From: Chryseobacterium sp. MYb264
GTDB taxonomy: Bacteria; Bacteroidota; Bacteroidia; Flavobacteriales; Weeksellaceae
NCBI RefSeq assembly: GCF_035974275.1
Contig: NZ_CP142422.1
Location: 4,092,001-4,156,000, forward strand
Reading direction: 5' to 3'
DNA length: 64,000 nt
Position numbers and translations under genes: made by a program. The notes beneath the pieces were generated by a model. It had not been told where the DNA came from, made no database searches, and saw nothing but the letters and a program-made list of their open reading frames with translations. The stretch's first letter is position 1; the number at the start of each line of letters is the position of its first letter. Positions 4,193-64,000 of the stretch are shown in pieces.

Positions 4193-4203
4193 TAATAATA
4201 TTA

Positions 4204-4303
4204 ATATAACAATTTAATAATATAACAGTTTACCAATAATAATTACTATTGTCATGCTGAGCTTGTCGAAGCATTCCATTGTTAAATTGCTAAACTGTTA
4301 GAT
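4204..4303. repeat. Octamer inverted array A (metX-hom / metZ gap)
   Basis: The left arm has four in-phase octamers of type ATNTANCA (4204-4235, ATATAACA to GTTTACCA). The right arm has three in the opposite orientation (4280-4303, TGTTAAAT, TGCTAAAC, TGTTAGAT). Between them is a roughly 40-nt insert that includes a TGTCATGCTGAGC...GAAGCAT element (4250-4274). It belongs to the same family as the arrays in the paa operon. Confidence 0.7.
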
Positions 4304-4321
4304 TTAAATATACAAAAGTTT

Positions 4322-5521
4322 ATGAGCGAAAATTTTCAACCAGAAACTAACAATGAGCAACTTTCAAATTTTGAAACACTTGCGATCAGAACCCAAACCG
4401 AAAGAACTCAGTTTGATGAGCATTCAACGCCTTTGTATTTAACATCCAGCTTTATTTTTCAGGATGCAGAAGATATGAGAGCGAGTTTTGCAGAAGAAAA
4501 ACCAAAGAATTTATACAGCCGTTTTTCCAATCCGAATGTAACGGAATTCACCGATAAAATTGCTAAAATGGAAGGCGCAGAAGCAGGATATGCTTTTGCA
4601 ACAGGAATGGCAGCGATTTATTCAACGTTTGCGACTTTGTTAAATGCAGGTGATCATATCGTAAGCTGTCAGTCGGTTTTCGGATCTACGCACACGTTGT
4701 TCACAAAATATTTCCCAAAATGGAATATTGAAACAACCTATTTCAAAGCGGAAGACGCTGAAAATGTTGAAAAATATATTCAGCCGAATACAAAAATTTT
4801 ATATCTGGAGACACCTACAAATCCTGCGATTGAGGTGTTAGATTTAGAATTTTTCGGACAAATTGCTAAAAAACATAACCTGATTTTCATTGTGGATAAC
4901 TGTTTTGCGACACCATATTTGCAACAACCTATAAAATACGGAGCAGATATTGTAGTGCATTCTGCAACAAAGTTGATAGACGGTCAAGGTCGTGTTTTAG
5001 GTGGTGTAGCAGTCGGTAGAGAAGATTTAATTCGTGAAATTTATCTTTTTGCAAGAAATACAGGTCCGGCAATGTCACCTTTCAATGCTTGGGTCTTGTC
5101 AAAAAGTTTGGAAACTTTAGCAATCCGTGTTGAAAAACATTGTGAAAATGCTTTAAAAGTAGCCGGGTTTTTAGAAGGTCACCCGAATGTAGAATTGGTG
5201 AAATATCCTTTCCTGCCATCACATCCAAGTTATGAAGTCGCTAAAAAACAGATGAAATTAGGCGGAAACATCGTCGCATTCGAAATCAAAGGCGGAATTG
5301 AAGGCGGAAGAAACTTTTTAGATAAAATTAAAATGTGTTCGCTTTCTGCCAACCTCGGCGATACGAGAACGATTGTTACGCATCCGGCTTCTACAACGCA
5401 TTCCAAATTGTCTGATGATGAAAGAAATGAAGTAGGAATTACAGCTGGTTTGGTTCGTTGTTCCGTTGGTTTAGAAAATGTGGATGATATTATCGCGGAT
5501 TTAAAACAAGCATTGGATTAA
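4322..5521 (+). CDS. metZ: O-acyl-homoserine sulfhydrylase (Cys/Met metabolism PLP enzyme)
   Basis: PLP-dependent enzyme that replaces the acyl group of O-acylhomoserine with sulfide to give homocysteine directly. The Schiff-base lysine is K217 in VVHSATKLIDGQGRVLGG, the PLP-pyridine Asp is D192 in FIVDNCFATP, and the family blocks SRFSNPNV and TGMAAI are present. The 399 aa length is usual for the cystathionine gamma-synthase / MetZ group. Placement next to metX and metH favours sulfhydrylation over cystathionine synthesis, and no cystathionine beta-lyase is in the cluster. It is separated from hom by array A, but runs in the same direction and probably on the same transcript from the SAM-regulated promoter. 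Confidence 0.9.
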   Translation: MSENFQPETNNEQLSNFETLAIRTQTERTQFDEHSTPLYLTSSFIFQDAEDMRASFAEEKPKNLYSRFSNPNVTEFTDKIAKMEGAEAGYAFATGMAAIYSTFATLLNAGDHIVSCQSVFGSTHTLFTKYFPKWNIETTYFKAEDAENVEKYIQPNTKILYLETPTNPAIEVLDLEFFGQIAKKHNLIFIVDNCFATPYLQQPIKYGADIVVHSATKLIDGQGRVLGGVAVGREDLIREIYLFARNTGPAMSPFNAWVLSKSLETLAIRVEKHCENALKVAGFLEGHPNVELVKYPFLPSHPSYEVAKKQMKLGGNIVAFEIKGGIEGGRNFLDKIKMCSLSANLGDTRTIVTHPASTTHSKLSDDERNEVGITAGLVRCSVGLENVDDIIADLKQALD

Positions 5522-5707: not shown

Positions 5708-6718
5708 ATGAAAAATTCAGAACAATTATATAAAGCATTATCCGAAAGAATTTTAATTCTGGACGGTGCGATGGGAACGATGCTTCAGCGATATAAATTT
5801 GAGGAAGAAGATTACCGTGGCGAGCGTTTCAAAGATTGGGAACATCCTGTGAAGGGAAATAATGATTTACTGTCGTTAACGCAACCTCATTCCATTGAAG
5901 AAGTTCACAGGAAATATTTGGAAGCAGGAGCTGATATTCTGGAAACCAATACGTTTTCGGGAACAACGATTGCAATGGCAGATTATCATATGGAAGATTT
6001 GGTTTACGAACTAAACTATGAATCTGCAAAAATCGCCAGAAAAGTATGTGATGAATTTACGGCTCAAAATCCTGATAAGCCAAGATTCGTAGCGGGATCT
6101 ATCGGACCAACCAACAGAACAGCAAGTTTAAGCCCTGATGTAAACGATCCTGGTTATAGAGCCATCACGTTTGAAGAACTGAGAGTTGCCTACAAACAGC
6201 AATGCGAAGCTTTATTAGATGGAGGTTCAGACATTTTATTGGTTGAAACAATCTTCGATACATTAAATGCAAAAGCAGCCCTTTTTGCGATCGATGAACT
6301 TCAGGATGAAAGAGGAATAAAAATCCCGATTATGGTTTCAGGAACAATTACGGATGCTTCAGGAAGAACATTGAGCGGACAAACTGCAGAAGCATTTTTA
6401 ATCTCAGTTTCACATTTGAATTTATTAAGTGTTGGTTTCAATTGTGCTTTGGGAGCCAATCAATTGACGCCGTATTTGGAAACATTGGCTCATAATTCAG
6501 AATTCCACGTTTCGGCGTATCCGAATGCGGGGCTTCCGAATGCTTTCGGAAAATATGACGAAACGCCGGAAGATATGGCGAGTCAGATTAAAGAATATGT
6601 TGAGAAAGGATTAATTAATATCATCGGAGGTTGTTGCGGAACAACGCCTGATCATATTAAAGCAATTGCAGATTTGGTAGAAAAATACGAACCGAGGAAG
6701 GTTAGTATAACAATATAA
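5708..6718 (+). CDS. metH: Methionine synthase, homocysteine-binding module (split MetH)
   Basis: This 336-residue protein is the Hcy S-methyltransferase barrel of cobalamin-dependent methionine synthase on its own. It starts with [13 protein letters not shown], and the three zinc-binding cysteines are visible: C246 in VGFNCALG and C309/C310 in [11 protein letters not shown]. In most bacteria this barrel is the first quarter of a roughly 1220-residue MetH; here the remaining modules are encoded by the next gene after a 91-bp gap. The two proteins must associate to move the methyl group from B12 to homocysteine. A free-standing betaine or SMM-homocysteine methyltransferase is possible in principle, but the following gene makes split MetH by far the best reading. 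Confidence 0.92.
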
Positions 6719-6720
6719 TA

Positions 6721-6803
6721 ATTTATCAACGTAACAATCTTCTTAAAGAATCTATTGGTAAACTGCTACATTAATAGACTGTTACATTGATACATTGGTA
6801 AAT
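6721..6803. repeat. Octamer inverted array B (inside split metH)
   Basis: Two left-arm octamers (ATTTATCA, ACGTAACA; 6721-6736) are followed by an irregular centre and six right-arm octamers (6756-6803, TGGTAAAC through TGGTAAAT). The array ends 6 nt before the ATG of the second metH gene. It lies exactly at the point where MetH is split into two genes. Confidence 0.75.
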
Positions 6804-6809
6804 TAAACT

Positions 6810-9470
6810 ATGAAATATTTAAGATTATCGGGGCTCGAGCCTTTGATTATTATGCCGGAAAGTAATTTCATCAATGTTGGTGAAAGAACAAATGTTGCCG
6901 GTTCAAAGAAATTTTTAAGATTAATAAAAGAAGAGAAATATTCTGAAGCTCTTGATATTGCGCGTCACCAGGTTGAAGGTGGGGCGCAGATTCTTGATGT
7001 CAATTTCGATGACGGATTGATTGACGGAAAGGCTTCCATGATTAAATTTCTAAATTTAATTGCTTCAGAACCTGATATTTCCAGAATTCCTATCATGATC
7101 GATTCTTCGAAATGGGAAATTCTGGAAGCCGGATTGCAGGTTGCACAGGGAAAATGTGTGGTCAATTCTATCAGCTTAAAAGAAGGCGAAGAAGAATTTA
7201 TCAAGCATGCAAAAGCCATTAAAAGATATGGTGCGGCGATGATTGTTATGGCGTTCGATGAAGTGGGACAAGCCGATACTTACGAACGTAGAATCGAGAT
7301 TTCAAAACGTTCTTACGATCTTTTGGTTAATGAATTAAAGTTTCCTGCCGAAGATATTATTTTCGATTTAAATATTTTCCCTGTCGCAACGGGAATGGAT
7401 GAACACAGAAGAAATGCCATCGATTTTATCGAAGCAACGAGATGGGTTCGCCAGAATCTTCCGTATGCCTCTGTGAGTGGAGGAGTTTCCAATGTTTCGT
7501 TTTCGTTCCGTGGAAATGATACGGTGAGAGAAGCGATGCACTCGGTTTTCCTTTATCACGCGATTCAGGCGGGAATGAATATGGGAATTGTAAACCCTGC
7601 GATGTTGGAGGTTTATGATGAAATTAATAAAGAGCTTCTTGAATTAGTTGAAGATGTAATTCTTGATAAAAGAGAAGATGCTACTGAAAGGCTTTTGGAT
7701 TATTCCGAAAAGCATAAATCGGTTAAAAAAGAAAAAACCGAAGAGCTTGAATGGCGTACAAAACCTTTACAGGAAAGAATTACGCATTCTTTGGTAAAAG
7801 GAATCGACCGTTTCATCGAAGAAGATGTTGAGGAAGCAAGATTACAAGCGGAACGACCTTTACACGTAATCGAAGTTAATTTGATGACCGGAATGGGTGT
7901 TGTTGGAGACCTTTTCGGAAGCGGAAAAATGTTCTTACCACAAGTTGTGAAATCGGCAAGGGTAATGAAAAAAGCGGTTGCCTATTTACAGCCATTTATC
8001 GAAGCTGAAAAAGACGGTGCAAAACCAGCCAACGGAAAAATCTTAATGGCAACGGTAAAAGGAGACGTTCATGATATCGGTAAAAATATTGTGAGCGTTG
8101 TTTTGGGTTGTAACAATTATGAAATCGTCGACCTTGGAGTGATGGTTCCTGCCGAAAAAATTATTCAGGCTGCGATTGAACATCAGGTTGATGTCATTGG
8201 TTTAAGCGGATTGATTACGCCAAGTTTGGATGAAATGGTGTACATCGCTTCAGAATTAGAAAGACAAAATTTAAATTTTCCTTTACTGATCGGTGGTGCT
8301 ACAACTTCAAAAGCACATACCGCTGTGAAAATTGATTTAAAATATAAAAATGCCGTTGTTCACGTGAATGATGCGTCGAGAGCGGTAAACGTGGTAAGTT
8401 CATTGTTGGGCGACAGAAATAAAGAATATGTTGAAGATCTAAAAAGCGACTATTCAGATTTCAGAGAAAAGTTCCTGAACAGACAGGTTGATAAAGATTA
8501 TGTTTCGATTGAAGATGCCCGAAAAGACAAGTTTAAAATCGATTGGGAGAATGAAGAAATCTTTACTCCAAACCAATTAGGAATTCAGGTTTTTGAAAAT
8601 CAGGATTTAAGAGAATTGTTACCATTCATCGACTGGTCACCGTTTTTCAGAAGCTGGGATCTGCATGGGAAGTATCCGCAAATTTTAGAAGATGAGGTTG
8701 TCGGAGCGCAGGCGAAAGAATTGTTCAAAGATGCTCAGGTTATTTTAAAGAGAATTTTAGACGAAAAATTATTAACCGCCAAAGCTATTTTCGGAATTTT
8801 TAAAGCCAATTCTAATGAAACAGATGATATTTTAATCTTCGATGAAAATAACGAAGAGAAAGTAAAATTCCTGACATTGAGACAACAGGCTCAGCGTTCG
8901 AAAGGAAAAGATTATCTGGCTTTAAGTGATTTTATCGCACCTCAAAGTTCAGGAAAAACCGATTATATGGGCGCTTTCTGTGTAACAACAGGTTTCGGAA
9001 CAGATGAATTGTCAGAAGAATATGAAAAAGCGAATGACGATTACAATGCGATCATGGTAAAAGCCTTGGCTGATCGTTTTGCTGAAGCGTATGCCGAATT
9101 TTTACATAAAAAAGTAAGAACCGAATATTGGGGTTACGCGAATCAGGAAAGTTTGAGCAACGAAGAATTAATTGCCGAAAAATACAAAGGGATTCGTCCG
9201 GCTCCGGGTTATCCTGCTTGCCCGGATCATTTGGAAAAACATGCCATCTGGGATCTGTTAAAAGTGGAAGAAGAAATCGGAGTATATTTAACAGAAAGTT
9301 TAGCCATGTTCCCGACCGCTGCTGTTTCCGGATATTATTTCGGAAGCCCGCACGCAAAATATTTCGGATTAGGAAAAATTGCAGAAGATCAGTTGAAAGA
9401 TTATTCGCAGCGAAAAGGAATTTCTTTGCAGGAAGCGAGAAAATGGCTGAATCCAAATTTAGCAGATTAA
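6810..9470 (+). CDS. metH: Methionine synthase, folate, cobalamin and activation modules
   Basis: The larger part of split MetH. Modules in order: pterin-binding barrel (about 15-290, [20 protein letters not shown]), B12-cap helices (about 310-400), cobalamin-binding Rossmann domain with the cobalt-ligand motif DVHDIGKN (H421) and [13 protein letters not shown], and the C-terminal AdoMet reactivation domain (about 590-886) with [15 protein letters not shown]. It takes methyl from 5-methyltetrahydrofolate and passes it via methylcobalamin to homocysteine held by the preceding gene product. The 886 aa plus 336 aa of its neighbour add up to normal MetH length, so nothing is lost. metF follows and supplies the methylfolate. 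Confidence 0.95.
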
Positions 9471-38416: not shown

Positions 38417-38485
38417 TAGTTATAAGTTATTAGTGAGGAGTTAATTTTGCTTATTGCTTATTGCTTATTGCTTATTGCTTATTGC
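38417..38485. repeat. Heptamer array with five exact TATTGCT/TTATTGC units
   Basis: In-phase period-7 units start at 38417: TAGTTAT, AAGTTAT, TAGTGAG, GAGTTAA, TTTTGCT, then TTATTGC repeated five times (38451-38485). The first units are degenerate and the last are identical, as expected for growth by slippage at one end. Unit types match the arrays at 9483 and 21457. Confidence 0.75.
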
Positions 38486-55641: not shown

Positions 55642-56726
55642 TGAATTCATTTTATAAACTTAAAACCGTTAAGGTTCAGAAAGATACTCCCGAAGCAGTA
55701 AATGTAGCGGTGGAAATTCCTGAAGAGCTGAAAGATAAATTCAGATTCAAACAAGGTCAGTATCTGAACTTTAAAATGATGATTGACGGGAACGAAGAGA
55801 GACGTTCTTATTCTATCTGCAATGCGCCAAGTGAAAAAAGCAACACGCTGGAAGTATTGGTGAAATTATTGGAAAACGGAAAAGTTTCAGGCTATTTCAA
55901 CGAACATCTTCACATGGATGAAATTCTTGAAGTAATGCCTCCGATGGGCGGTTTCAATACCTCTTATCACCCGACAAACGTTAAAACTTACGTTGGTTTG
56001 GCAGCAGGAAGCGGAATTTCTCCGGTTTTGTCGAATATCAAGGAAAGTCTTTATCAGGAGCCGAATTCAAACGCTTATTTGTTCTACAGCAACAGAAGCA
56101 TGAATCATGTGATGAAAAAGGCTGAAATCGATCAATTGGTGGAAACTTTTAACGGAAGACTGAAAGTTGTTTATTTAGTAAGCCGTGAAAAACATGAAGA
56201 TCCTATTTTTGAAGGAAGAATTTCTCCTGAAAAATTAGATCACTTGTTTGAAAGATATGCTGATATTGATGTAAAAGAATCTACTTTCTTCATTTGCGGA
56301 CCTTCAGAGATGATTAAAGGGATTGCAGATTATTTAAAGAAAGATAAAAAAGTACCGGCCATTCAGGTTTTATTTGAATATTTTACCGCTCCTGACGAGG
56401 AAGATACAGCTGAAATGAGCGATGAATTCAAGGCGATTGCCAATATTGAAAGTATGGTAACGGTGATCATTGATGATGATGAATATTCGTTCCACCTTAA
56501 TTCCAAAAAAGAGAGTATCTTAGATAAAGCATTGAAAGACAATCTTCCTGTACCTTTTGCGTGCAAAGGAGGGGTGTGCTGTACGTGTAAAGCGGAAGTT
56601 TTGGAAGGAGAAGTTTTCATGGAGAAAAACTATGCGCTTACCGAAGAAGAAGTAGCCAGAGGCTTCGTCCTTACCTGTCAATGTCACCCGACAACAAATG
56701 TGGTGATGCTTAATTATGACGTGTAA
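55641..56726 (+). CDS. paaE: Phenylacetyl-CoA epoxidase reductase subunit
   Basis: A 361-residue electron-transfer subunit of the ring 1,2-phenylacetyl-CoA epoxidase. The N-terminal FAD-binding domain has RRSYSICNAP, the NAD-binding domain has GLAAGSGISPVLSNI and FFICGPSEMI, and the C-terminal plant-type ferredoxin domain has the 2Fe-2S cysteines in CKGGVCCTC (C-x4-C-x2-C) plus a later Cys in LTCQC. It passes electrons from NADPH to the di-iron site of PaaA. It starts on the last base of the paaK stop codon and is followed by octamer array C. Confidence 0.96.
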   Translation: MNSFYKLKTVKVQKDTPEAVNVAVEIPEELKDKFRFKQGQYLNFKMMIDGNEERRSYSICNAPSEKSNTLEVLVKLLENGKVSGYFNEHLHMDEILEVMPPMGGFNTSYHPTNVKTYVGLAAGSGISPVLSNIKESLYQEPNSNAYLFYSNRSMNHVMKKAEIDQLVETFNGRLKVVYLVSREKHEDPIFEGRISPEKLDHLFERYADIDVKESTFFICGPSEMIKGIADYLKKDKKVPAIQVLFEYFTAPDEEDTAEMSDEFKAIANIESMVTVIIDDDEYSFHLNSKKESILDKALKDNLPVPFACKGGVCCTCKAEVLEGEVFMEKNYALTEEEVARGFVLTCQCHPTTNVVMLNYDV

Positions 56727-56729
56727 ACA

Positions 56730-56798
56730 ATTTAACAATGTAATAGTTTACCAATGTAACAATGATTGCTAGACTGTTAAATTGATAGATTGTTACAT
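56730..56798. repeat. Octamer inverted array C (paaE-paaA)
   Basis: Four forward octamers (ATTTAACA, ATGTAATA, GTTTACCA, ATGTAACA; 56730-56761) meet the centre AATGATTG. Four reverse octamers follow (TGCTAGAC, TGTTAAAT, TGATAGAT, TGTTACAT; 56767-56798). This is the cleanest simple member of the family. Confidence 0.85.
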
Positions 56799-56822
56799 TT
56801 TAAAATTTGAAAAATTTTAATT

Positions 56823-57761
56823 ATGGATTTAGAAAAATTTGTACAATACGTACACGACGAAAATAAAGTAGAACCAAAAGATGTAATGCCGGATGATTAC
56901 AGAAAACTATTGGTTCGTCAGATTTCACAACACGCGCATTCTGAAATTGTCGGAATGTTGCCGGAAGCGAACTGGGTTTCAAGAGCACCTTCATTGAGAA
57001 GAAAAATGGCGCTTTTGGCTAAAGTTCAGGATGAGGCAGGTCACGGTTTATATTTATATTCTGCAACTGAAACGTTAGGAAACGGAACGATCAGAGCAGA
57101 CAGAGACGCTACTTACGACGATATGTTGGAAGGAAAAGCGAAATATTCAAGTATCTTCAATTATCCGACGTTGAGCTGGGCAGATATCGGCGCGATCGGT
57201 TGGCTGGTTGATGGTGCAGCGATTATGAACCAGGTAATGTTGATGGGGAATTCTTATGGTCCTTACTCAAGAGCGATGGTAAAAATCTGTAAAGAAGAAT
57301 CTTTCCACCAAAGACAGGGTTACGAGATTTTAATGGCGCTTTGTCGTGGTACAAAACAGCAGAAAGAAATGGCTCAGGCTTCGTTAAACCGTTTCTGGTG
57401 GCCCGCTTTAATGATGTTTGGTCCGAATGATGACAGTTCGCCAAATTCTAAAATCTCTATGAATTACAGAGTGAAAAGAGAAAGTAACGACAGTCTTCGT
57501 CAGAGATTTATTGATGTTACCGTTTCTCAGGCTGAATTCTTAGGATTAACCGTTCCGGATAAAGACCTGAAATGGAATGAGGAAAGACAGCATTACGATT
57601 TCGGAGAACTTCCGTGGGATGAATTCATGGAAATCTTAAAAGGAAACGGTCCTGCCAACAAAAAGCGTATCGAAACCAAGAGAAAAGCGCAAAGAGAAAA
57701 TTCTTGGGTAAAAGAAGCGGCAGCAGCTTTCGCAGAAAAACAGGAGAAAATTTCAATATAA
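56823..57761 (+). CDS. paaA: Phenylacetyl-CoA epoxidase catalytic subunit
   Basis: The di-iron oxygenase subunit, 312 aa, that forms the ring epoxide on phenylacetyl-CoA. Iron ligands are visible as E41 (HAHSEIVGM), E71 and H74 ([11 protein letters not shown]), and the second pair in [14 protein letters not shown] (E158/E159, H162). The segment [20 protein letters not shown] is typical. It works in a complex with PaaB, C and E. Its stop codon (57759-57761) lies within the first octamer of array D. Confidence 0.97.
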
Positions 57762-57859
57762 CAATATACCAATGTAAAAATGTAGCAATTCAATTGTCAT
57801 TCTGAGCGAAGCGAAGAATCTCATTATTGTTAAACTGGTACATTGATACATTGTTAAAT
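57756..57859. repeat. Octamer inverted array D (paaA-paaB) with central insert
   Basis: There are four forward octamers (57756-57787, the first overlapping the paaA stop) and four reverse ones (57828-57859). Between them is an insert with TGTCATTCTGAGCGAAGCGA and following GAATCTC (57795-57822), a widespread Bacteroidota intergenic sequence. Confidence 0.8.
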
Positions 57860-57871
57860 TTAATTTTATTT

Positions 57872-58153
57872 ATGGCAAATTTAGATATGTGGGAAGTGTT
57901 TATTCAGACTAAACCGGGATTATCTCACAAACATGTTGGAATTGTACAGGCACCAACAGCAGAAATGGCTTTGCAGAACGCAAGAGACGTTTATACAAGA
58001 AGAAAAGAAGGAACTTCTGTTTGGGTAGTTCCAAGTAAATATATCGTGACTTCGGAAGGGGTTGATAAAGAAGCGTTCTTCGATCCAGCGGATGATAAAT
58101 TGTACCGTCACCCGACGTTCTACGACATTCCAAACGATGTGAAAAATATGTAA
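57872..58153 (+). CDS. paaB: Phenylacetyl-CoA epoxidase subunit B
   Basis: A 93-residue small subunit from the ATG at 57872; the longer reading from 57827 would translate array D and is rejected. Typical PaaB sequence: WEVFIQTKPGLSHKHVGIVQ, APTAEMALQNARDVYTRRKE, SVWVVPSKYIVTS. PaaB bridges PaaAC heterodimers in the complex and has no catalytic site. It lies between paaA and paaC in the standard order. Confidence 0.95.
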   Translation: MANLDMWEVFIQTKPGLSHKHVGIVQAPTAEMALQNARDVYTRRKEGTSVWVVPSKYIVTSEGVDKEAFFDPADDKLYRHPTFYDIPNDVKNM

Positions 58154-58251
58154 TTAAGACTTTGGAGATAATAGACGAATAGATAATAGACGTCAAAGTC
58201 TATCTATTTTCTATCAGTCTATCATCTATCAGTCTTCAAATTGATTAAACA

Positions 58252-59001
58252 ATGAACCCATTATATAATTATTTATTAAAACTAGCAGACGACAGTTTCA
58301 TTATGGGACAGCGTTTGTCTGCATGGTGCGGTGAAGGTCCTTATTTAGAGGAAGATATTGCATTAACGAATATTGCGTTGGATGAACTTGGACAGGCGAA
58401 TAACTTTTACGTTTACGCTTCAAGAGTGATCGACAACGGAAAAAGCGAAGATGATCTGGCGTTTCTAAGATACGAACACGAATATCTAAATGCACACTGG
58501 GCAGAACTTCCGAACGAAGATTATGCTCAGACGATCTTAAAAGTGTACGTTTTTGCGGTATATCAGAAGCTGATGTATGAAGCATTATCAAATTCTGCCA
58601 ATGAAGAACTTTCTGCCATTGCTCAGAAATCGTTGAAAGAAGTAAGGTATCACTATACTCACGCTGCTTCGTGGATGAAAATTTTCGCTCAGGGAACAGA
58701 AGAAAGTAAATCCCGTTTAGAAAAAGCAATCGAAAATATTTGGGAATATACGAAAGGTCTATTCGCAAAAACAGAAGGAGAAGATGATTTGGTAGATTTA
58801 AATATTGCTCCGAATGCAGATGCTCTTTATGAAGAATTCGTTGCAATTACACAGAAAGATTTTGCAGGTTTCGGCTTAGAATATCCTGTAAATCCTTTCA
58901 TGCAGCCAAAATCAAGAACAGGTTACCACACAGAATATTTTGGATTTATCCTTTGTGAGCTGCAATATATGCAGAGAGCATATCCGGGATGTACTTGGTA
59001 A
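58252..59001 (+). CDS. paaC: Phenylacetyl-CoA epoxidase structural subunit
   Basis: A 249-residue ferritin-like partner of PaaA. MGQRLSAWCGEGPYLEEDIA, NIALDELGQANNFYVYASRV, RYHYTHAASWMKIFAQGTEE and PKSRTGYHTEYFGFILCELQ are characteristic. PaaC has the di-iron fold but is structural rather than catalytic. The 98-nt gap before it holds an imperfect TAGACGTCAAAGTC-rich inverted sequence (about 58170-58235) but no octamer array. Confidence 0.95.
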   Translation: MNPLYNYLLKLADDSFIMGQRLSAWCGEGPYLEEDIALTNIALDELGQANNFYVYASRVIDNGKSEDDLAFLRYEHEYLNAHWAELPNEDYAQTILKVYVFAVYQKLMYEALSNSANEELSAIAQKSLKEVRYHYTHAASWMKIFAQGTEESKSRLEKAIENIWEYTKGLFAKTEGEDDLVDLNIAPNADALYEEFVAITQKDFAGFGLEYPVNPFMQPKSRTGYHTEYFGFILCELQYMQRAYPGCTW

Positions 59002-59006
59002 TAAAA

Positions 59007-59091
59007 ATGTACCAATATATCAATTTAACAGTCTAGCAATGATTGTTACATTGATACATTGTTAAATTGTTACATTAATTTATTGTTAGAT
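59007..59091. repeat. Octamer inverted array E (paaC-paaD)
   Basis: Four forward octamers (59007-59038) meet the centre AATGATTG and are followed by six reverse octamers (59044-59091). The last unit runs into the region where paaD must start. Confidence 0.85.
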
Positions 59092-59097
59092 TTAAAA

Positions 59098-59562
59098 TTG
59101 AAAAATCCTTTAGAAATATTAGAACTCGTTCCCGATCCGGAAATTCCGGTAATTAATATCGTGGAATTGGGTATTGTGAGAGATGCGAAGGTTACAGGTT
59201 CGAATTCTGTCGAGGTTACCATTACACCAACTTATTCTGCCTGCCCCGCTATGTTTACCATTGAGGAAGACATCATGAAAATCATGAAGGAAAATGGTTG
59301 GGATGCAAAAGTAGTGACCAAAATGTTTCCGATTTGGACCACAGATTGGCTGACGGATGATGCAAGAGAAAAACTTCGCGTTTACGGAATCACACCTCCC
59401 GAAAAAGGAGCAGATGAACATCACATTGGGAAACCAAAAAAATGTCCTCGTTGTGGTTCTATGAACTCCAAACAGATCAGCAGATTCGGATCTACTTTAT
59501 GTAAGGCTTCGTATCAGTGTTTAGACTGTTTAGAGCCTTTTGATTATTTTAAATGCCACTAA
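59098..59562 (+). CDS. paaD: Epoxidase maturation protein PaaD (DUF59/MIP18 type)
   Basis: A 154-residue protein needed to assemble a functional epoxidase. It has a DUF59 domain (about 5-85, LVPDPEIPVINIVELGIVRD, TPTYSACPAM) and a C-terminal cysteine-rich region (CPRCGSMNSK, LCKASYQCLDC, FKCH) that can bind zinc or an iron-sulfur cluster. There is no ATG at the front. TTG at 59098 (MKNPLEILELV) is chosen because it directly follows array E and leaves only family-like sequence; TTG at 59083 is the alternative and lies within the array. The start is the least certain in the operon. Confidence 0.85.
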   Translation: MKNPLEILELVPDPEIPVINIVELGIVRDAKVTGSNSVEVTITPTYSACPAMFTIEEDIMKIMKENGWDAKVVTKMFPIWTTDWLTDDAREKLRVYGITPPEKGADEHHIGKPKKCPRCGSMNSKQISRFGSTLCKASYQCLDCLEPFDYFKCH

Positions 59563-59567
59563 AATCA

Positions 59568-59655
59568 GTGTAACAATATAGCAATCTAGCAGTTTAAAAA
59601 TATGTTCAGTATGACATTATAATTATTACATTGTTAGACTGATAAATTGTTACAT
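59568..59655. repeat. Octamer inverted array F (paaD-paaG)
   Basis: Four forward octamers (GTGTAACA, ATATAGCA, ATCTAGCA, GTTTAAAA; 59568-59599) and four reverse octamers (59624-59655) flank a roughly 24-nt centre (ATATGTTCAGTATGACAT...). A GGAGG stretch at 59671-59675, rare here, lies 20 nt before the paaG ATG, too far to be a normal ribosome-binding site. Confidence 0.75.
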
Positions 59656-59695
59656 TATAACTAAATTAGTGGAGGTAATAAAAAAATAAAAAACG

Positions 59696-60496
59696 ATGTA
59701 CACACAACTCGATATTGAATCACATTTCGACGGAAAGCTGAAAATTGCTTATCTGAATCAACCGGACACCATGAATGCGCTAACAAAGCCATCTTTATTA
59801 GATTTAAAAGACTTTGTGAAAGAGTGCAGCAATGATCCTGAAGTACGATGCGTTGCGATTTCAGGAAGAGGAAGAGCATTTTGCTCCGGTCAGAACCTGG
59901 ATGACGCTTTTGTAACGGGAAAAGAGCATCAAGATAATGATATTATCAGAAAAATTGTGGTGGATTATTATAATCCGTTAGTTACAGAAATTACTCGTTG
60001 CAGAAAGCCGGTTGTTGCTTTGGTAAATGGCCCTGCTGTGGGAGCAGGAGCAATGTTGGCATTAATCTGCGATTTTGTCTTAGCCAGTGAAAAAGCTTAT
60101 TTCTCACAGGCATTTTCCAATATAGGATTAATTCCTGATACCGGAGGTACCTATTTCTTACCAAAACTATTGGGGAGACAGTTGGCCAATTATTTAGCAT
60201 TTACCGGTAAAAAATTATCGGCTGAAGAATCAAAATCGTATGGTTTGGTGGCAGAAGTTTTCTCGGAAGAGGAATTCATTTCCAAATCATTGGAAATTTT
60301 AGAAAAAACATCCAATATGCCGACCGTTGGCTTGAAATTAACGAAAAAAGCTTTTGCCGCTTCGTATAACAACTCTCTGAAAGATCAATTGGAACTGGAA
60401 GGCGATCTTCAGCAGGAAGCAGCAGAAACGGAAGATTTTATCGAAGGTGTAAATGCCTTTTTAGAAAAAAGAAAACCTGATTATAAAGGAAGATAA
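59696..60496 (+). CDS. paaG: Enoyl-CoA hydratase/isomerase family, ring-epoxide isomerase
   Basis: A 266-residue crotonase. FCSGQNLDD is the oxyanion-hole loop and GPAVGAGAMLAL is the second hole segment. In the catalytic loop GLIPDTGGTYFLP, Asp148 stands where hydratases have Glu, as in PaaG of E. coli, the isomerase that opens the epoxide to the oxepin-CoA. PaaF would have Glu residues for hydration. The match to PaaG is therefore better than to PaaF. A second crotonase (PaaF) and PaaZ, needed for the full pathway, are not in the window and may lie downstream. Confidence 0.88.
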   Translation: MYTQLDIESHFDGKLKIAYLNQPDTMNALTKPSLLDLKDFVKECSNDPEVRCVAISGRGRAFCSGQNLDDAFVTGKEHQDNDIIRKIVVDYYNPLVTEITRCRKPVVALVNGPAVGAGAMLALICDFVLASEKAYFSQAFSNIGLIPDTGGTYFLPKLLGRQLANYLAFTGKKLSAEESKSYGLVAEVFSEEEFISKSLEILEKTSNMPTVGLKLTKKAFAASYNNSLKDQLELEGDLQQEAAETEDFIEGVNAFLEKRKPDYKGR

Positions 60497-60502
60497 GAAT
60501 TA

Positions 60503-60619
60503 ATATAACAATATACCAATGTAGCAGTTTACCAATGAAATGCGTCAATAGTCCGACACGCTCACTACTGGCAAGCATTACAAAAATTGTTACATTGTTA
60601 CATTGATACACTGTTACAT
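60503..60619. repeat. Octamer inverted array G (paaG-paaH) with central insert
   Basis: Four forward octamers (60503-60534), a 50-nt central insert with higher GC (about 60538-60585, GTCCGACACGCTC), then four reverse octamers (60588-60619) ending 1 nt before the paaH ATG. Confidence 0.8.
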
Positions 60620-60620
60620 T

Positions 60621-61751
60621 ATGAAAGTAGGAATTATCGGTGCCGGAACAATGGGAATCGGCATTGCACAAGTAGCTGCAACGAACGGATGCAGGGTTTG
60701 GGTGTACGACGCCAATCCGAAACAAGTAGAAACGGCAACTGTAGGTCTGGAAAAAACATTAACCAAATTGGTTGATAAGCAGAAAATTTCATCAGAAAAA
60801 ATGGTCGAAATTTTATCTAATATTTCCATAGCTACAGAATTGAAGGACTTCAAAGATTGCGAATTAATTATTGAAGCCATCATCGAAAACAAAGACATAA
60901 AAACCAAAGTTTTCACAGAATTAGAGAAACACGTTTCCGAAAGCTGTGTGATTGGTTCCAATACATCATCCATTTCCATCACCTCTCTCGGTGCGGAATT
61001 ACAGAAACCGGAGCGTTTCATCGGAATTCACTTCTTCAATCCGGCTCCTTTGATGCCTTTAGTTGAGGTTATCCCTTCTTTATTAACAGAAAAATCTTTA
61101 GCGGAAAAAATCTATAATCTGATGAAAGAGTGGGGTAAAACTCCTGTTATTGCAAAGGATATTCCTGGATTTATCGTTAATAGAATTGCCCGTCCTTACT
61201 ACGGTGAAGGATTGAGATTGGTTGAGGAAAACATTGCAACAGTAGAACAGGTAGATGATGCCATGAAAACAATAGGAAACTTCAAAATGGGACCTTTTGA
61301 ATTAATGGATTTAATTGGTGTTGATGTGAATTTTTCTGTGACAAAAACAGTGTACAACGAATATTTCTACGATCCAAAATATAAACCATCTCTTCTTCAG
61401 CAAAGAATGTCGGAAGCAAAACTTCACGGCAGAAAAACCGGAAAAGGGTTCTACGATTATTCTGAAGGGGCAGAAAAACCTGTTGCCGAAAAAGATGATG
61501 TACTTTATCAACAAATATTTTTGAGAATTATTTCAATGCTAATCAATGAAGCGGTTGAAGCAAAAAGATTAGGTATTGCGAACGATGAAGATTTAGAATT
61601 GGCCATGCAGAAAGGTGTAAATTATCCAAAAGGGTTATTGGCTTGGGGAAAAGAAATCGGATATGCAAAAATCTCCGAAACGCTACAAAATCTTTACGAA
61701 GAATATCAGGAAGAAAGATACAGACAAAGTCCTTTGCTGCGTAAATTATAA
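60621..61751 (+). CDS. paaH: 3-hydroxyacyl-CoA dehydrogenase
   Basis: A 376-residue NAD-dependent dehydrogenase for the 3-hydroxyadipyl-CoA step. The NAD loop is GIIGAGTMGIGIAQ (about 4-17); the active-site region IGSNTSSISIT and the catalytic His in FIGIHFFNPAPLMPLVEV are present; PGFIVNRIARPYY begins the C-terminal domain. The ATG at 60621 is used; upstream extension would translate array G. At 376 aa it is longer than the 280-residue enzymes and shorter than the 500-residue PaaH of E. coli, keeping an extra C-terminal helical domain. The last 61 nt of the gene are repeated four more times downstream. Confidence 0.92.
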   Translation: MKVGIIGAGTMGIGIAQVAATNGCRVWVYDANPKQVETATVGLEKTLTKLVDKQKISSEKMVEILSNISIATELKDFKDCELIIEAIIENKDIKTKVFTELEKHVSESCVIGSNTSSISITSLGAELQKPERFIGIHFFNPAPLMPLVEVIPSLLTEKSLAEKIYNLMKEWGKTPVIAKDIPGFIVNRIARPYYGEGLRLVEENIATVEQVDDAMKTIGNFKMGPFELMDLIGVDVNFSVTKTVYNEYFYDPKYKPSLLQQRMSEAKLHGRKTGKGFYDYSEGAEKPVAEKDDVLYQQIFLRIISMLINEAVEAKRLGIANDEDLELAMQKGVNYPKGLLAWGKEIGYAKISETLQNLYEEYQEERYRQSPLLRKL

Positions 61752-62330
61752 ATGTACCAATGTATCAGTTTATCAATGTACCAATCTAAAAACACTGGTA
61801 AACTGATACATTGCTAAATCTTTACGAAGAATATCAGGAAGAAAGATACAGACAAAGTCCTTTGCTGCGTGAATTATAAATGTACCAATGTATCAGATTA
61901 TCAATGTACCAATCTAACAACACTGGTAAACTGATACATTGCTAAATCTTTACGAAGAATATCAGGAAGAAAGATACAGACAAAGTCCTTTGCTGCGTAA
62001 ATTATAAATGTACCAATGTATCAGTTTATCAATGTACCAATCTAAAAACACTGGTAAACTGATACATTGCTAAATCTTTACGAAGAATATCAGGAAGAAA
62101 GATACAGACAAAGTCCTTTGCTGCGTAAATTATAAATGTACCAATGTATCAGTTTATCAATGTACCAATCTAAAAACATTGGTAAACTGATACATTGCTA
62201 AATCTTTACGAAGAATATCAGGAAGAAAGATACAGATAAAGTCCTTTGCTGCGTAAATTATAAATGTACCAATGTATCAGTTTACCAATCTAAAAATATT
62301 GGTAAACTGATACATTGCTAAATTGCTACA
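61691..62330. repeat. 128-nt tandem repeat: paaH tail plus octamer array, five units
   Basis: Units start at 61691, 61819, 61947, 62075 and 62203, exactly 128 nt apart. Each has the last 61 nt of paaH, including its stop codon, followed by a 67-nt octamer hairpin (forward ATGTACCA, ATGTATCA, GTTTATCA, ATGTACCA; reverse TGGTAAAC, TGATACAT, TGCTAAAT). The units differ by only a few bases; unit 2 has most changes. The fifth is 8 nt shorter in its array. The first unit is the real gene end. This fills the whole paaH to 62339 gap. Confidence 0.95.
62270..62317. repeat. Perfect 20-bp hairpin in the last array unit
   Basis: The arms 62270-62289 and 62298-62317 are exact reverse complements (core ATGTATCAGTTTACCAAT) around the 8-nt loop CTAAAAAT. 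This is the only unit with a perfect stem, produced by loss of one octamer. It lies 21 nt before the next ATG. Confidence 0.9.
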
Positions 62331-62338
62331 TTAATATT

Positions 62339-62647
62339 ATGGATATAAATAGTTTCAGAGCCGAATTAGAAACAAGGCTTATTATTGAAAAAGAATACAT
62401 TATTCAGGAGCTTTCTATGATGAATGAGGATCCTGAAAAACTGGAATTATTAGGCAAATTCAATGAAAAATATAAAGAGTTAGTGAGAAGAATCGCTAAT
62501 GAAGAAGGAATTGATCTGAATGCCTTTTATACCCATGAAAATTCATCAGATAACCTCACATACGAGCAGATAATTCTTGGAAAAACCATGAGTGTTTATG
62601 ATAAACTGGCCGATGAATTATATGTCGAAATAACAAGAACAAATTAA
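62339..62647 (+). CDS. Unknown 102-aa helical protein in the paa operon
   Basis: A 102-residue protein from the ATG at 62339; a longer reading from 62315 translates array sequence. The sequence is charged and helical (SFRAELETRLIIEKEYIIQE, KLELLGKFNEKYKELVRRIA) with a conserved-looking middle (NEEGIDLNAFYTHENSSDNL). No signal, membrane helix or recognised domain. It starts between paaH and paaI and ends 1 nt before the paaI ATG, so it is translated from the same message. A role in phenylacetate breakdown is inferred from position only. Confidence 0.75.
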   Translation: MDINSFRAELETRLIIEKEYIIQELSMMNEDPEKLELLGKFNEKYKELVRRIANEEGIDLNAFYTHENSSDNLTYEQIILGKTMSVYDKLADELYVEITRTN

Positions 62648-62648
62648 T

Positions 62649-63062
62649 ATGAATCCGAGACAGGTTGTAGATTATATGATGGAGAAAGACTATTTCTCCC
62701 AATTTTTAGGAATAAAAATCATTGATATTAAAGAAAATTATTCTTTGATTGAAATGGAAATCACCAAACAAATGCTCAACGGATTGGGAACAGTTCATGG
62801 AGGAGTAACATTCGCTTTTGCAGATTCTGCATTTGCTTTTTCATCAAACAATGACGGAAACGCAGCGGTTGCATTAAGTGTAACCATCAATTTTACCAAA
62901 GCCGGAAGGGAAGGAGATATTTTCAGAGCAGAAAGTGTTTTGGTAAATGATACCAGAAAAACGGCGATTTACGACATTAAAATTACCAATCAAAATAACG
63001 ATCAGGTAGCAAAATTTGTTGGAACAGTGTATAAAATCGGGAAAAAAGTAACGGAGCTATAG
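62649..63062 (+). CDS. paaI: Hotdog-fold thioesterase PaaI
   Basis: A 137-residue hotdog thioesterase. GLGTVHGGVTFAFADSAFAF contains the HGG motif and the catalytic Asp on the long helix (ADSAF), as in PaaI of E. coli and Thermus; VALSVTINFTKAGREGDIFR is the matching beta-hairpin. It releases CoA from stalled hydroxyphenylacetyl-CoA products. It follows the unknown 102-aa gene with a 1-nt gap and is followed by array I. Confidence 0.93.
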   Translation: MNPRQVVDYMMEKDYFSQFLGIKIIDIKENYSLIEMEITKQMLNGLGTVHGGVTFAFADSAFAFSSNNDGNAAVALSVTINFTKAGREGDIFRAESVLVNDTRKTAIYDIKITNQNNDQVAKFVGTVYKIGKKVTEL

Positions 63063-63067
63063 GCTCA

Positions 63068-63131
63068 ATGTAACAATGTAACAATGTAACAATGAAACAA
63101 TGTATCGGTGTACCAATTTACCAATTTACCA
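63068..63131. repeat. Octamer half-array I (forward arm only)
   Basis: Eight consecutive forward units: three exact ATGTAACA, then ATGAAACA, ATGTATCG, GTGTACCA, and ATTTACCA twice. It ends at the centre motif AATGAT, but no reverse arm follows; the four-helix-bundle gene comes instead. Confidence 0.85.
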
Positions 63132-63162
63132 ATGATATGAAATAAATTAATTTTTAACACAA

Positions 63163-63513
63163 ATGATAAACTTCGAAAACAACCCATTAATTTCCAAAAC
63201 AGTTCAGTTTTCTTTAGATATAATTGAATTTTGTGAACTGTTAGATGAAAAAAGAAAATTTGTTATTGCTAAACAATTGTTACGTTCCGGAACTAGCATT
63301 GGAGCTAACTCGTTTGAAGCACAAAACCCACACAGCAAGAATGATTTTATCAATAAAATTAAAATTGCAGCAAAAGAATTAGAAGAAACAAAATATTGGC
63401 TCTATCTCTGTAAACATTCTAAAACTTATCCATTCGATGAAAAGTTAGAACTTCAGATTACTGAGATTGGAAAAATTATTTATAAAATATTAAGTACAAG
63501 CTTGAAAAATTAG
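63163..63513 (+). CDS. Four-helix bundle protein (23S rRNA intervening-sequence type)
   Basis: A 116-residue all-helical protein. NPLISKTVQFSLDIIEFCEL, KQLLRSGTSIGANSFEAQNP and KIAAKELEETKYWLYLCKHS are the blocks of the four-helix bundle family known as S23 / IVP, first found in 23S rRNA intervening sequences and often present as a stray gene in Bacteroidota. Function not established; the family forms pentamers. It sits inside the paa operon between paaI and paaJ, flanked by half-array I and array J, which suggests later insertion. Its stop codon meets array J. Confidence 0.88.
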   Translation: MINFENNPLISKTVQFSLDIIEFCELLDEKRKFVIAKQLLRSGTSIGANSFEAQNPHSKNDFINKIKIAAKELEETKYWLYLCKHSKTYPFDEKLELQITEIGKIIYKILSTSLKN

Positions 63514-63589
63514 TATAACAATGTACCAAGGTAACAGTCTACAAATGATTGTTACACTGTTACATTATTAGATTGTTAAATTGAATTAT
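63513..63589. repeat. Octamer inverted array J (four-helix gene to paaJ)
   Basis: Four forward octamers (GTATAACA, ATGTACCA, AGGTAACA, GTCTACAA; 63513-63544) meet the centre AATGATTG, and five reverse units (63550-63589) end 1 nt before the paaJ ATG. Confidence 0.85.
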
Positions 63590-63590
63590 T

Positions 63591-64000
63591 ATGAACAACG
63601 TATATATCATAGATTATGTAAGAACGCCCATCTCAAAATTGGCCGGAGGACTTTCTGAAGTTCGTGCGGACGATTTGGCAGCGGTGGTGATTAAAGAAGT
63701 GGTGGCAAGAAACCCTGAAGTTCCTGTGGACGAAATTGAGGATGTTATTTTCGGATGTGCGAATCAGGCGGGTGAAGATAACAGAAATGTAGCAAGAATG
63801 GGACTTTTATTGGCTGGGCTTCCCTATAAAATCGGTGGTGAAACGGTTAACAGACTTTGTGCTTCAGGAATGTCGGCGGTGGCGAATGCTTTCCGTTCGA
63901 TTGCTTCCGGTGAAGGTGAAATTTACATCGCAGGTGGAGTAGAGCACATGACGCGTTCGCCTTATGTAATGTCAAAACCAAGTGCAGCTTTCGGTAGAGA
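63591..64000 (+). CDS. paaJ: 3-oxoadipyl-CoA / beta-ketoadipyl-CoA thiolase, 5' part
   Basis: The first 136 codons of a thiolase cut by the window end (the full enzyme is about 400 aa). MNNVYIIDYVRTPISKLAGG is the usual start of this group, the nucleophilic cysteine is C90 in VNRLCASGMSAVANAFRS, and AGGVEHMTRSPYVMSKP follows. In the paa pathway it cleaves 3-oxoadipyl-CoA to succinyl-CoA and acetyl-CoA and also acts on the dehydro intermediate. The match to PaaJ/PcaF is from sequence and context; a general thiolase is the alternative. Confidence 0.9.
   Translation, partial: MNNVYIIDYVRTPISKLAGGLSEVRADDLAAVVIKEVVARNPEVPVDEIEDVIFGCANQAGEDNRNVARMGLLLAGLPYKIGGETVNRLCASGMSAVANAFRSIASGEGEIYIAGGVEHMTRSPYVMSKPSAAFGR

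Follow-up and report, generated by a model that had tools for sequence, protein, structure and literature searches.

What kind of element fills almost every gap between the genes of the paa operon for phenylacetate degradation in Chryseobacterium sp. MYb264, and what about it is kept? The operon lies in a 64,000-nucleotide (nt) stretch of this genome (contig NZ_CP142422.1, positions 4,092,001 to 4,156,000), called the window below, in which a degenerate octamer is repeated between genes, forward and then in reverse complement. By comparing paa loci, we found that an earlier note on this DNA, which described the octamer arrays, had caught one family among several interchangeable families of hairpins with a period of 7 or 8 nt. 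Single modules are replaced abruptly between species, and the flanks are unaffected beyond ~75 nt.

Several hairpin families occur in the same paa gaps

The comparison covered 84 paa loci: the best 80 of 122 Chryseobacterium paa operons, three relatives, and the window. The window and the three relatives have no near duplicates among the other loci (identity over paaA plus paaC, ≤92.4%). Octamer elements were detected in the paaE-paaA (40/84), paaA-paaB (41/84), paaC-paaD (20/84), paaD-paaG (36/84), paaG-paaH (26/83), paaH-paaI (26/83), paaI-paaJ (22/82), paaJ-trf (35/80), and trf-paaZ (32/75) gaps; none was found in paaB-paaC (0/84), paaK-paaE (0/79), or tetR-paaK (0/68). Gaps without octamers were seldom empty, and another degenerate heptamer or octamer hairpin was often present. 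Sorted by hand, at least eight unit families occur in the same gaps, the octamer ARTNTANC being one of them. The others are AATTTGAA/AATGTGCT, GACNNATAGATAATA, TTTTGGC/TTTTAGC, GANNTTA, and TGTANAA, together with at least two further families recognized by eye, one of the TAAGC/GCCTA type and one of the ATCTGAA type. Assignment relied on hand-made signatures, which left 106 of 578 gaps unclassified (81 of 546 without the promoter gap).

The period itself was assessed by autocorrelation in 582 gap sequences of 50 to 250 nt. At a threshold of z > 3, 369 sequences passed, 85 at lag 7 and 284 at lag 8, and 213 failed; no sequence passed at lags 4 to 6 or 9 to 12. The tetR-paaK promoter gap showed such periodicity in 1 of 32 cases. 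Of the alleles represented three times or more (n = 42), periodicity at 7 or 8 (mean z > 2) is seen in 34, and folding below a z of −2 on one or the other strand is seen in 35.

Single modules are replaced between species

Family changes were counted as the minimum on a FastTree tree of five paa genes, unclassified gaps being excluded. At least 27 changes were needed for paaE-paaA (79 loci), 16 for paaA-paaB (65 loci), 30 for paaB-paaC (66 loci), 9 for paaC-paaD (37 loci), 10 for paaD-paaG (54 loci), 24 for paaG-paaH (58 loci), 4 for paaI-paaJ (25 loci), and 18 for paaJ-trf (72 loci). In 14 nonoverlapping near pairs separated by a 4-fold distance of 0.12 to 0.24, the 73 gap comparisons fell into 34 with at least 85% identity and 31 with less than 66%, with only 8 between.

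Third-position divergence of the flanking genes, given as swapped/unchanged gaps, was 0.084/0.049 at 0 to 30 nt from the gap, 0.169/0.126 at 30 to 75 nt, 0.149/0.151 at 75 to 150 nt, and 0.135/0.145 at 150 to 270 nt; random species pairs gave 0.199 to 0.309. Because the flanks of swapped and unchanged gaps are alike beyond ~75 nt, replacement carries little flank with it. The final 110 nt upstream of paaK, taken as a control, never fell below 70% identity (0 of 50 near-pair comparisons), a control that is valid for the promoter-proximal part only because the tetR-paaK gap as a whole is less well kept. For 521 of 536 gap sequences, the best match is the same gap in another species, and we conclude from this that each gap draws on a limited set of alleles (7 to 23 clusters) common across the genus. 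Good matches to another gap of the same genome were seen for 89 of the 536.

Sequence between genes is usually regarded either as filler that drifts or as a set of fixed signals. In these operons, entire intercistronic modules stay nearly unchanged until a hairpin of another family takes over, gap by gap, while the genes diverge smoothly; the history of a gap can differ strongly from that of the adjoining genes.

Anatomy of the octamer elements

Arrays in the window were scored as in-phase chains of A-R-T-N-T-A-N-Y, with bridging of one off-pattern unit permitted. This gave 28 chains of at least two units and 22 of at least three, against means of 0.95 and 0.0 in 20 first-order Markov simulations. 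Chains were present at every position at which the earlier note had placed an array (A to J), including the two in the met cluster. The features of the window are as follows.

4203..4304, + strand: array A, met cluster gap; four forward octamers, a REP-bearing loop (GTCATGCTGAGC..GAAGCA), three reverse octamers
6704..6804, + strand: array B, met cluster; three forward units, a long loop, six reverse units; overlaps the end of the upstream open reading frame (ORF)
56729..56799, + strand: array C, paaE-paaA gap; the canonical 71-bp element, 4 + AATGATT + 4
57755..57860, + strand: array D, paaA-paaB gap; 4 + long loop + 4, with a REP-like repeat in the loop
57796..57822, + strand: REP-like repeat GTCATTCTGAGCGAAGCGAAGAATCTC, within the loop of array D
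58154..58251, + strand: paaB-paaC gap hairpin; no octamers, another period-7/8 family of the TAATAGAC / GTCTATTA type
59006..59092, + strand: array E, paaC-paaD gap; 4 + AATGATT + 6, one bridging unit off consensus
59567..59656, + strand: array F, paaD-paaG gap; 3 + 34-nt loop + 4
60502..60620, + strand: array G, paaG-paaH gap; 4 + 55-nt loop + 4
61751..62332 (also listed as 61688-62323), + strand: block H; five tandem 128-bp copies (period 128, 5.0 copies, 96% matches)
63067..63130, + strand: array I; eight forward units, single-armed, directly before a gene of the four-helix 23S rRNA-intervening-sequence-protein family (IVP gene)
63163..63513, + strand: IVP gene (PF05635, E of 6e-21), between arrays I and J, inside the paa operon
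63512..63582, + strand: array J; 71-bp element, partly degenerate, before paaJ

Between 10 and 56 kb, in whose gaps the earlier note had noticed no array, there are zero octamer chains; the sole chain outside the named arrays has two units and lies within a coding ORF (9281-9304). The gap of array A is octameric in 19 of 25 loci inspected, some genomes being counted twice. For the ORF at 4322-5521, many relatives align only from residue 7 to 15 onward, several with an upstream stop codon; its start is therefore probably too early, and the gap is longer than it appears. At the array B gap, octamers were seen in 5 of 17 loci inspected (two genomes twice plus one more), and ten others have ~1.2 kb there. 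Array D has a near-identical counterpart in locus L104, and the main octamer allele of its gap is held by 40 of 73 loci. Each copy of block H joins an octamer hairpin to the 3′ end of paaH, and the copies differ slightly.

The arrays do share one degenerate octamer, as first proposed, and the unit is better defined as A-R-T-N-T-A-N-C. To avoid circularity, we restricted the unit test to interior units whose in-phase neighbors both match, which makes it unbiased: 659 of 843 such units fit ARTNTANC in the 84 paa loci (arrays A and B of the window included), and 312 of 362 fit it in 92 other loci. Positions 1, 3, 5, and 6 are constant in 95 to 98.7% of units, position 2 is A or G, position 8 is mostly C, and positions 4 and 7 are free. 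The usual element has a loop between an arm of four forward octamers and an arm of four reverse ones. In 240 two-armed elements from the 84 paa loci and other loci of the window's genome, four units was the commonest arm (152 forward, 170 reverse) and 7 nt the commonest single loop length (38 of 240). The flip between strands had been placed at one loop sequence, AATGATT, which applies to arrays C, E, and J; array I is single-armed, a REP lies in the loops of A and D, and the long loops of F and G are of other kinds. Strict phase does not hold absolutely, since the second copy of block H contains an indel.

One arm can expand, as at L181, where one arm holds 14 identical units, and single-armed runs reach 15 units. 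At L066:9896-10577, a 15-unit reverse arm and a four-unit forward arm lie between genes for an NAD synthase and a barnase-like ribonuclease (PF00545). The idea of a single ancestral element with two unlike arms, which came from the paa set, was dropped because the arms are of similar makeup outside paa. Heptamer arrays were also noticed away from the paa operon: a perfect array of TTGCTTA (5.6 copies) in a tandem gap at 38447-38485 of the window, and long arrays (AATCTTT and TGATAGA runs) between genes at L068:3527-3824 of the same genome.

Loops contain REPs

REP-core matches in the 84 loci (n = 108) fall within octamer loops in 63 cases and within arms in none. By inspection, the remaining 45 comprise 22 in named genes, 7 apparently true REPs, and 16 elsewhere; several of the 7 apparent true REPs sit in worn octamer hairpins. 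When loci L113 and L120 are aligned, the arms are nearly the same and a REP is present in the loop of one and absent from that of the other. This placement would be explained if the loop were exposed as single-stranded DNA; tolerance of insertions at that point would explain it as well.

Distribution in the genome, genus, and order

A strict three-unit pattern matched the window's genome 96 times, against 1 match for the reversed control pattern. By our own grouping, the 96 matches form 29 sites, of which 9 lie within the 14.7-kb paa operon (0.28% of the genome), where 0.08 was expected. Matches occur in 144 of 148 genomes of the genus, the window's own included. Across the order, 44 of 296 genomes have matches: all 29 from the genus, 12 of the 20 from other genera of the family, and 3 of 247 elsewhere. 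Of these last three, L081 contains a two-armed array and L079 a short run. Reversed controls were mostly zero; two Chryseobacterium genomes reach 12 matches, and another genome of the order has 15. The earlier note had named, as grounds for its own refutation, units no more frequent than AT composition predicts; the chain, genome, and genus counts, all in excess, speak against refutation.

Outside paa, we collected 112 elements from stretches of 15 other genomes and of the window's own genome, selected for holding strict matches; the paa stretches L192, L236, and L242 were left out, and L233 (IVP gene only) was kept. (The permutation of pair classes, the non-paa data on IVP proximity, and the non-paa arm makeup come from the 115-element set that includes L192, L236, and L242.) Of the 112, 86 lie in tandem gaps, 13 in convergent gaps, and 2 in divergent gaps, with 4 genic and 7 at an edge; among the window's other gaps of 50 to 300 nt, 8 of 26 are divergent. 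The elements are concentrated in operon gaps, in support of the earlier note, with 86 of the 112 between codirectional genes. Two arms were found in 78 elements, all of them forward then reverse (78/78), and 34 are single-armed. At L070:16191-19534, octamer elements lie between lipid A acyltransferase-like, ketoacyl synthase, and short-chain dehydrogenase genes, a cluster that resembles the aryl-polyene or flexirubin type.

Constraint, pairing, and polarity

In 65 paired comparisons (mean 4-fold distance, 0.355), differences per unit at positions 1 to 8 were 0.013, 0.119, 0.008, 0.207, 0.021, 0.017, 0.224, and 0.061, values that the detection pattern understates at fixed positions and not at free positions 4 and 7. 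The free positions of the paaA-paaB octamer allele change more slowly than the 4-fold sites of its neighbors: its variable positions differ most often by 2/18 at a local 4-fold distance of 0.3 to 0.7. In other well-populated gaps, near-identical and very different instances coexist.

At free positions 4 and 7 of the elements outside paa, agreement with the opposite arm in the symmetric register is lower than for permuted arms (0.258 versus 0.341 ± 0.021). For positions 2, 4, and 7, the values were 0.392 versus 0.456 ± 0.017 at shift 0 and 0.421 versus 0.435 and 0.438 at shifts −1 and +1; in the paa set, the match at shift 0 was 0.384 versus 0.453 ± 0.009. A preference for mismatches is evident for the octamer in the symmetric register but not in the registers next to it; for the other families, the best-register test of such a preference is biased upward. 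The octamer's mismatches are most simply read as avoidance of a perfect DNA palindrome. The elements are also polar with respect to transcription: in 48 transcription-oriented non-paa elements, the excess of A over T at positions 4 and 7 is larger in the 5′ arm than in the reverse complement of the 3′ arm, a difference reached in 0 of 5,000 random flips, and the paa set leans the same way.

A possible role as intercistronic spacers

The anatomy and the turnover of the arrays are well supported. As to what the arrays do, the explanation that we favor, though tentatively, is that they may be intercistronic hairpin spacers kept for their architecture, a function that we infer from sequence comparison. 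Each array would be one allele of an interchangeable module that spans from the stop codon of one gene to shortly before the start codon of the next and consists of an imperfect stem (roughly 25 to 35 bp per arm) of degenerate 7- or 8-nt units, forward then reverse complement, plus a loop. Units could arise by slippage at a 7- to 8-nt step plus an inverted copy, and modules may spread by short-patch recombination between species, occasionally being copied between gaps. In a ribosome-free gap, a weak, long transcribed hairpin would fix the spacing of the cistrons and shield the polycistronic mRNA. Selection on the architecture would leave the sequence free for swapping, and mismatches at free positions would hold its stability under the level that leads to loss of DNA palindromes or to cutting of double-stranded RNA. 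On this view, the design of the hairpin would count for more than the sequence that builds it. A more general statement, namely, that Chryseobacterium operons are spaced by exchangeable linker hairpins, that selection sees only the architecture (a ~30-bp stem of degenerate 7- to 8-nt units beside the stop codon, with mismatches at the free positions in the symmetric register), and that unrelated families compete for the same gaps and are swapped between species and between gaps by short-patch replacement that hardly touches the genes, is possible but appears to us rather doubtful. If architecture is what is kept, these gaps amount to a natural experiment on operon spacer function.

A number of observations weigh against the spacer explanation. 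At the thresholds used above, 7 of the 42 alleles lack a hairpin and 8 lack the period of 7 or 8, and two of the paaB-paaC gaps inspected are missing entirely (ATGTAATG). Swapped gaps do show a small excess of flank divergence within 75 nt, and for this reason our claim is one of short-patch replacement and does not extend to site-specific exchange. Between near species, the tetR-paaK gap as a whole is poorly kept (8 of 50 comparisons below 60% identity), so that intergenic turnover is not confined to the operon. Alleles are common to several loci, which means that all-pair counts are not independent, and pairs selected for gap identity, whose flanks diverge to nearly the same extent whether the gaps are identical or different, cannot by themselves demonstrate constraint. 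The transcribed strand is not favored either: fold scores of both strands are similar, the sense fold being lower than the antisense fold in only 103 of 281 period-8 gaps and 24 of 84 period-7 gaps. Moreover, A·C mispairs (113) outnumber G·U pairs (77) in the 48 oriented elements, the opposite of what selection on sense-RNA pairing predicts, and in the permutation Watson-Crick pairs are depleted, with both wobble classes slightly up. Selection on sense-RNA pairing is therefore unsupported by fold energy or by the G·U and A·C counts. Finally, the fixed octamer positions are more constant than pairing alone demands.

Alternatively, the arrays may be selfish or neutral extragenic palindromes: slippage-born period-7/8 arrays and REP-like hairpins that build up wherever an insertion is harmless and are carried by recombination without benefit to the operon. 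This is a real possibility, albeit not one that we consider probable. In its favor, their placement is like that of REPs, with tandem and convergent but almost no divergent gaps, the loops contain REPs, copies are common to gaps of one genome (the 89 of 536 above), and there are one-sided expansions (14 identical units at L181; single-armed runs of up to 15). Against it, the free positions of the paaA-paaB octamer allele change more slowly than 4-fold sites, 0.28% of the genome contains 9 of the 29 strict sites, and a hairpin is retained in the same gaps when its family changes.

That each octamer is an operator, bound by a protein through its constant positions so that converging arrays form a cooperative site, is unlikely. 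The 8-bp spacing and the constancy of positions 1, 3, 5, and 6 (at least 95% in interior units) would fit such a site; nevertheless, at one and the same gap the octamer is replaced by unrelated 7- and 8-nt families, divergent promoter gaps are rare among the elements (2/112), and no common regulator was found among 30 proteins scanned, mostly from flanking genes.

Even less likely are mobile single-strand elements, whether substrates of Y1 (RAYT/IS200-like) transposases or attC-like integron sites. REPs do occur in loops, Y1-type genes are found in 34 of 84 paa loci, and a Bacteroidetes TnpAY1 subclass, 2.6, is flanked by atypical hairpins (excerpts of PMC6006769). Yet none of the 34 Y1 genes of the paa loci has an octamer element within 600 nt, the five Y1 flanks inspected hold other palindromes, and core gene order is constant in the 10 paa loci inspected. 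For the paa loci, a RAYT partner is rejected. No integron integrase exceeded the TIGR02249 cutoff in 40 genomes, but neither did one in 14 control genomes, and matches were scored in pieces; the sensitivity of this search is therefore unproven, and integron cassettes or attC sites are unsupported to that extent only.

Lastly, all-frame translation stops that block read-through between cistrons, suggested by the TAA/TAG in forward units and by a unit length (7 or 8) that is not a multiple of 3, are a very improbable account of the arrays, to whose stop codons the earlier note had drawn attention: upstream genes already terminate at the array edge, the inverted order is unneeded, and, judged by eye, some families have no stops in their reverse arms.

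Relation to known repeats

No description of these arrays was found in the open-access literature searched, in agreement with the earlier note, which knew of no named family; this is not proof of absence. The lead that it gave to degenerate-heptamer stems of cyanobacteria proved to be the closest analogue. In the P6b stem of the Nostoc trnL group I intron, the heptamers are TDNGATT (Class I) and NNTGAGT (Class II), and the variable sites are largely unpaired (58% and 79%) (excerpts of PMC4476775). As in the paa arrays, the stem is built from degenerate units of constant period, and motif classes are repeatedly replaced at one site. P6b is a single site in a self-splicing intron with two 7-nt classes (excerpts of PMC4476775), whereas the paa arrays occupy about ten intercistronic gaps per operon, belong to at least eight families with 7- or 8-nt units, contain no intron, and carry REPs in their loops. 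They are not in a P6b position, being intercistronic and without any Rfam match at the gathering score in 56400-64000; the 12 matches there at E values up to 1 are all below that score and are mostly microRNA look-alikes. If the spacer explanation is true, it can be tested why degenerate 7- to 8-nt units form stems in both cyanobacterial introns and Bacteroidota operons.

Like REP, BIME, and REPIN sequences, the elements are extragenic palindromes in many copies (excerpts of PMC3733652 and PMC6006769). They differ from REP/BIME/REPIN elements with their RAYTs in that the octamer stem is periodic, no transposase was found to flank it in the paa loci, and REP-like repeats are guests of the loop. 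No constant GTAG or CGTC tag was noticed, although no systematic scan of the hairpin foot was made; the outermost units are variable, and the GTAG present within some units (AATGTAGC) has no constant position.

TAACTGA heptamers form direct repeats in Beggiatoaceae, Cyanobacteria, and some Bacteroidetes (169 sets plus one indirect), and Mrazek et al. 2007 tied heptamer repeats to polymerase slippage (both according to excerpts of PMC4679880). These, too, are short intergenic tandem heptamers, mostly near start codons; they consist of a single exact unit in direct orientation, related heptamers are rarely repeated, and the excerpts describe no second inverted arm (PMC4679880). The paa array unit, ARTNTANC, has 8 nt and is not an exact TAACTGA tandem. 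The STRR repeats of heterocystous cyanobacteria are short tandem intergenic repeats of exact heptamers in one orientation. CRISPR was ruled out because the units are contiguous, without spacers.

Genes near the arrays

IVP copies with at least 89% identity in the paaI-paaJ gap of other species also adjoin octamer elements, and an octamer element lies within 150 nt in 16 of 38 IVP loci. The IVP gene as a constant partner was rejected: a paralogue (about 47 to 58% identity) in the paaG-paaH gap of other species has no octamers beside it. Nor is this gene part of a 23S rRNA intervening sequence, as it lies in the paa operon and not in rRNA. Just past the window, a Y1/IS200-like transposase gene (weak PF01797 match) follows paaZ at L074:5131-5514. 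Related Y1-type genes occur between trf and ech2 in many loci, and the flanks inspected hold palindromes such as AACCTCATAGGTTT.

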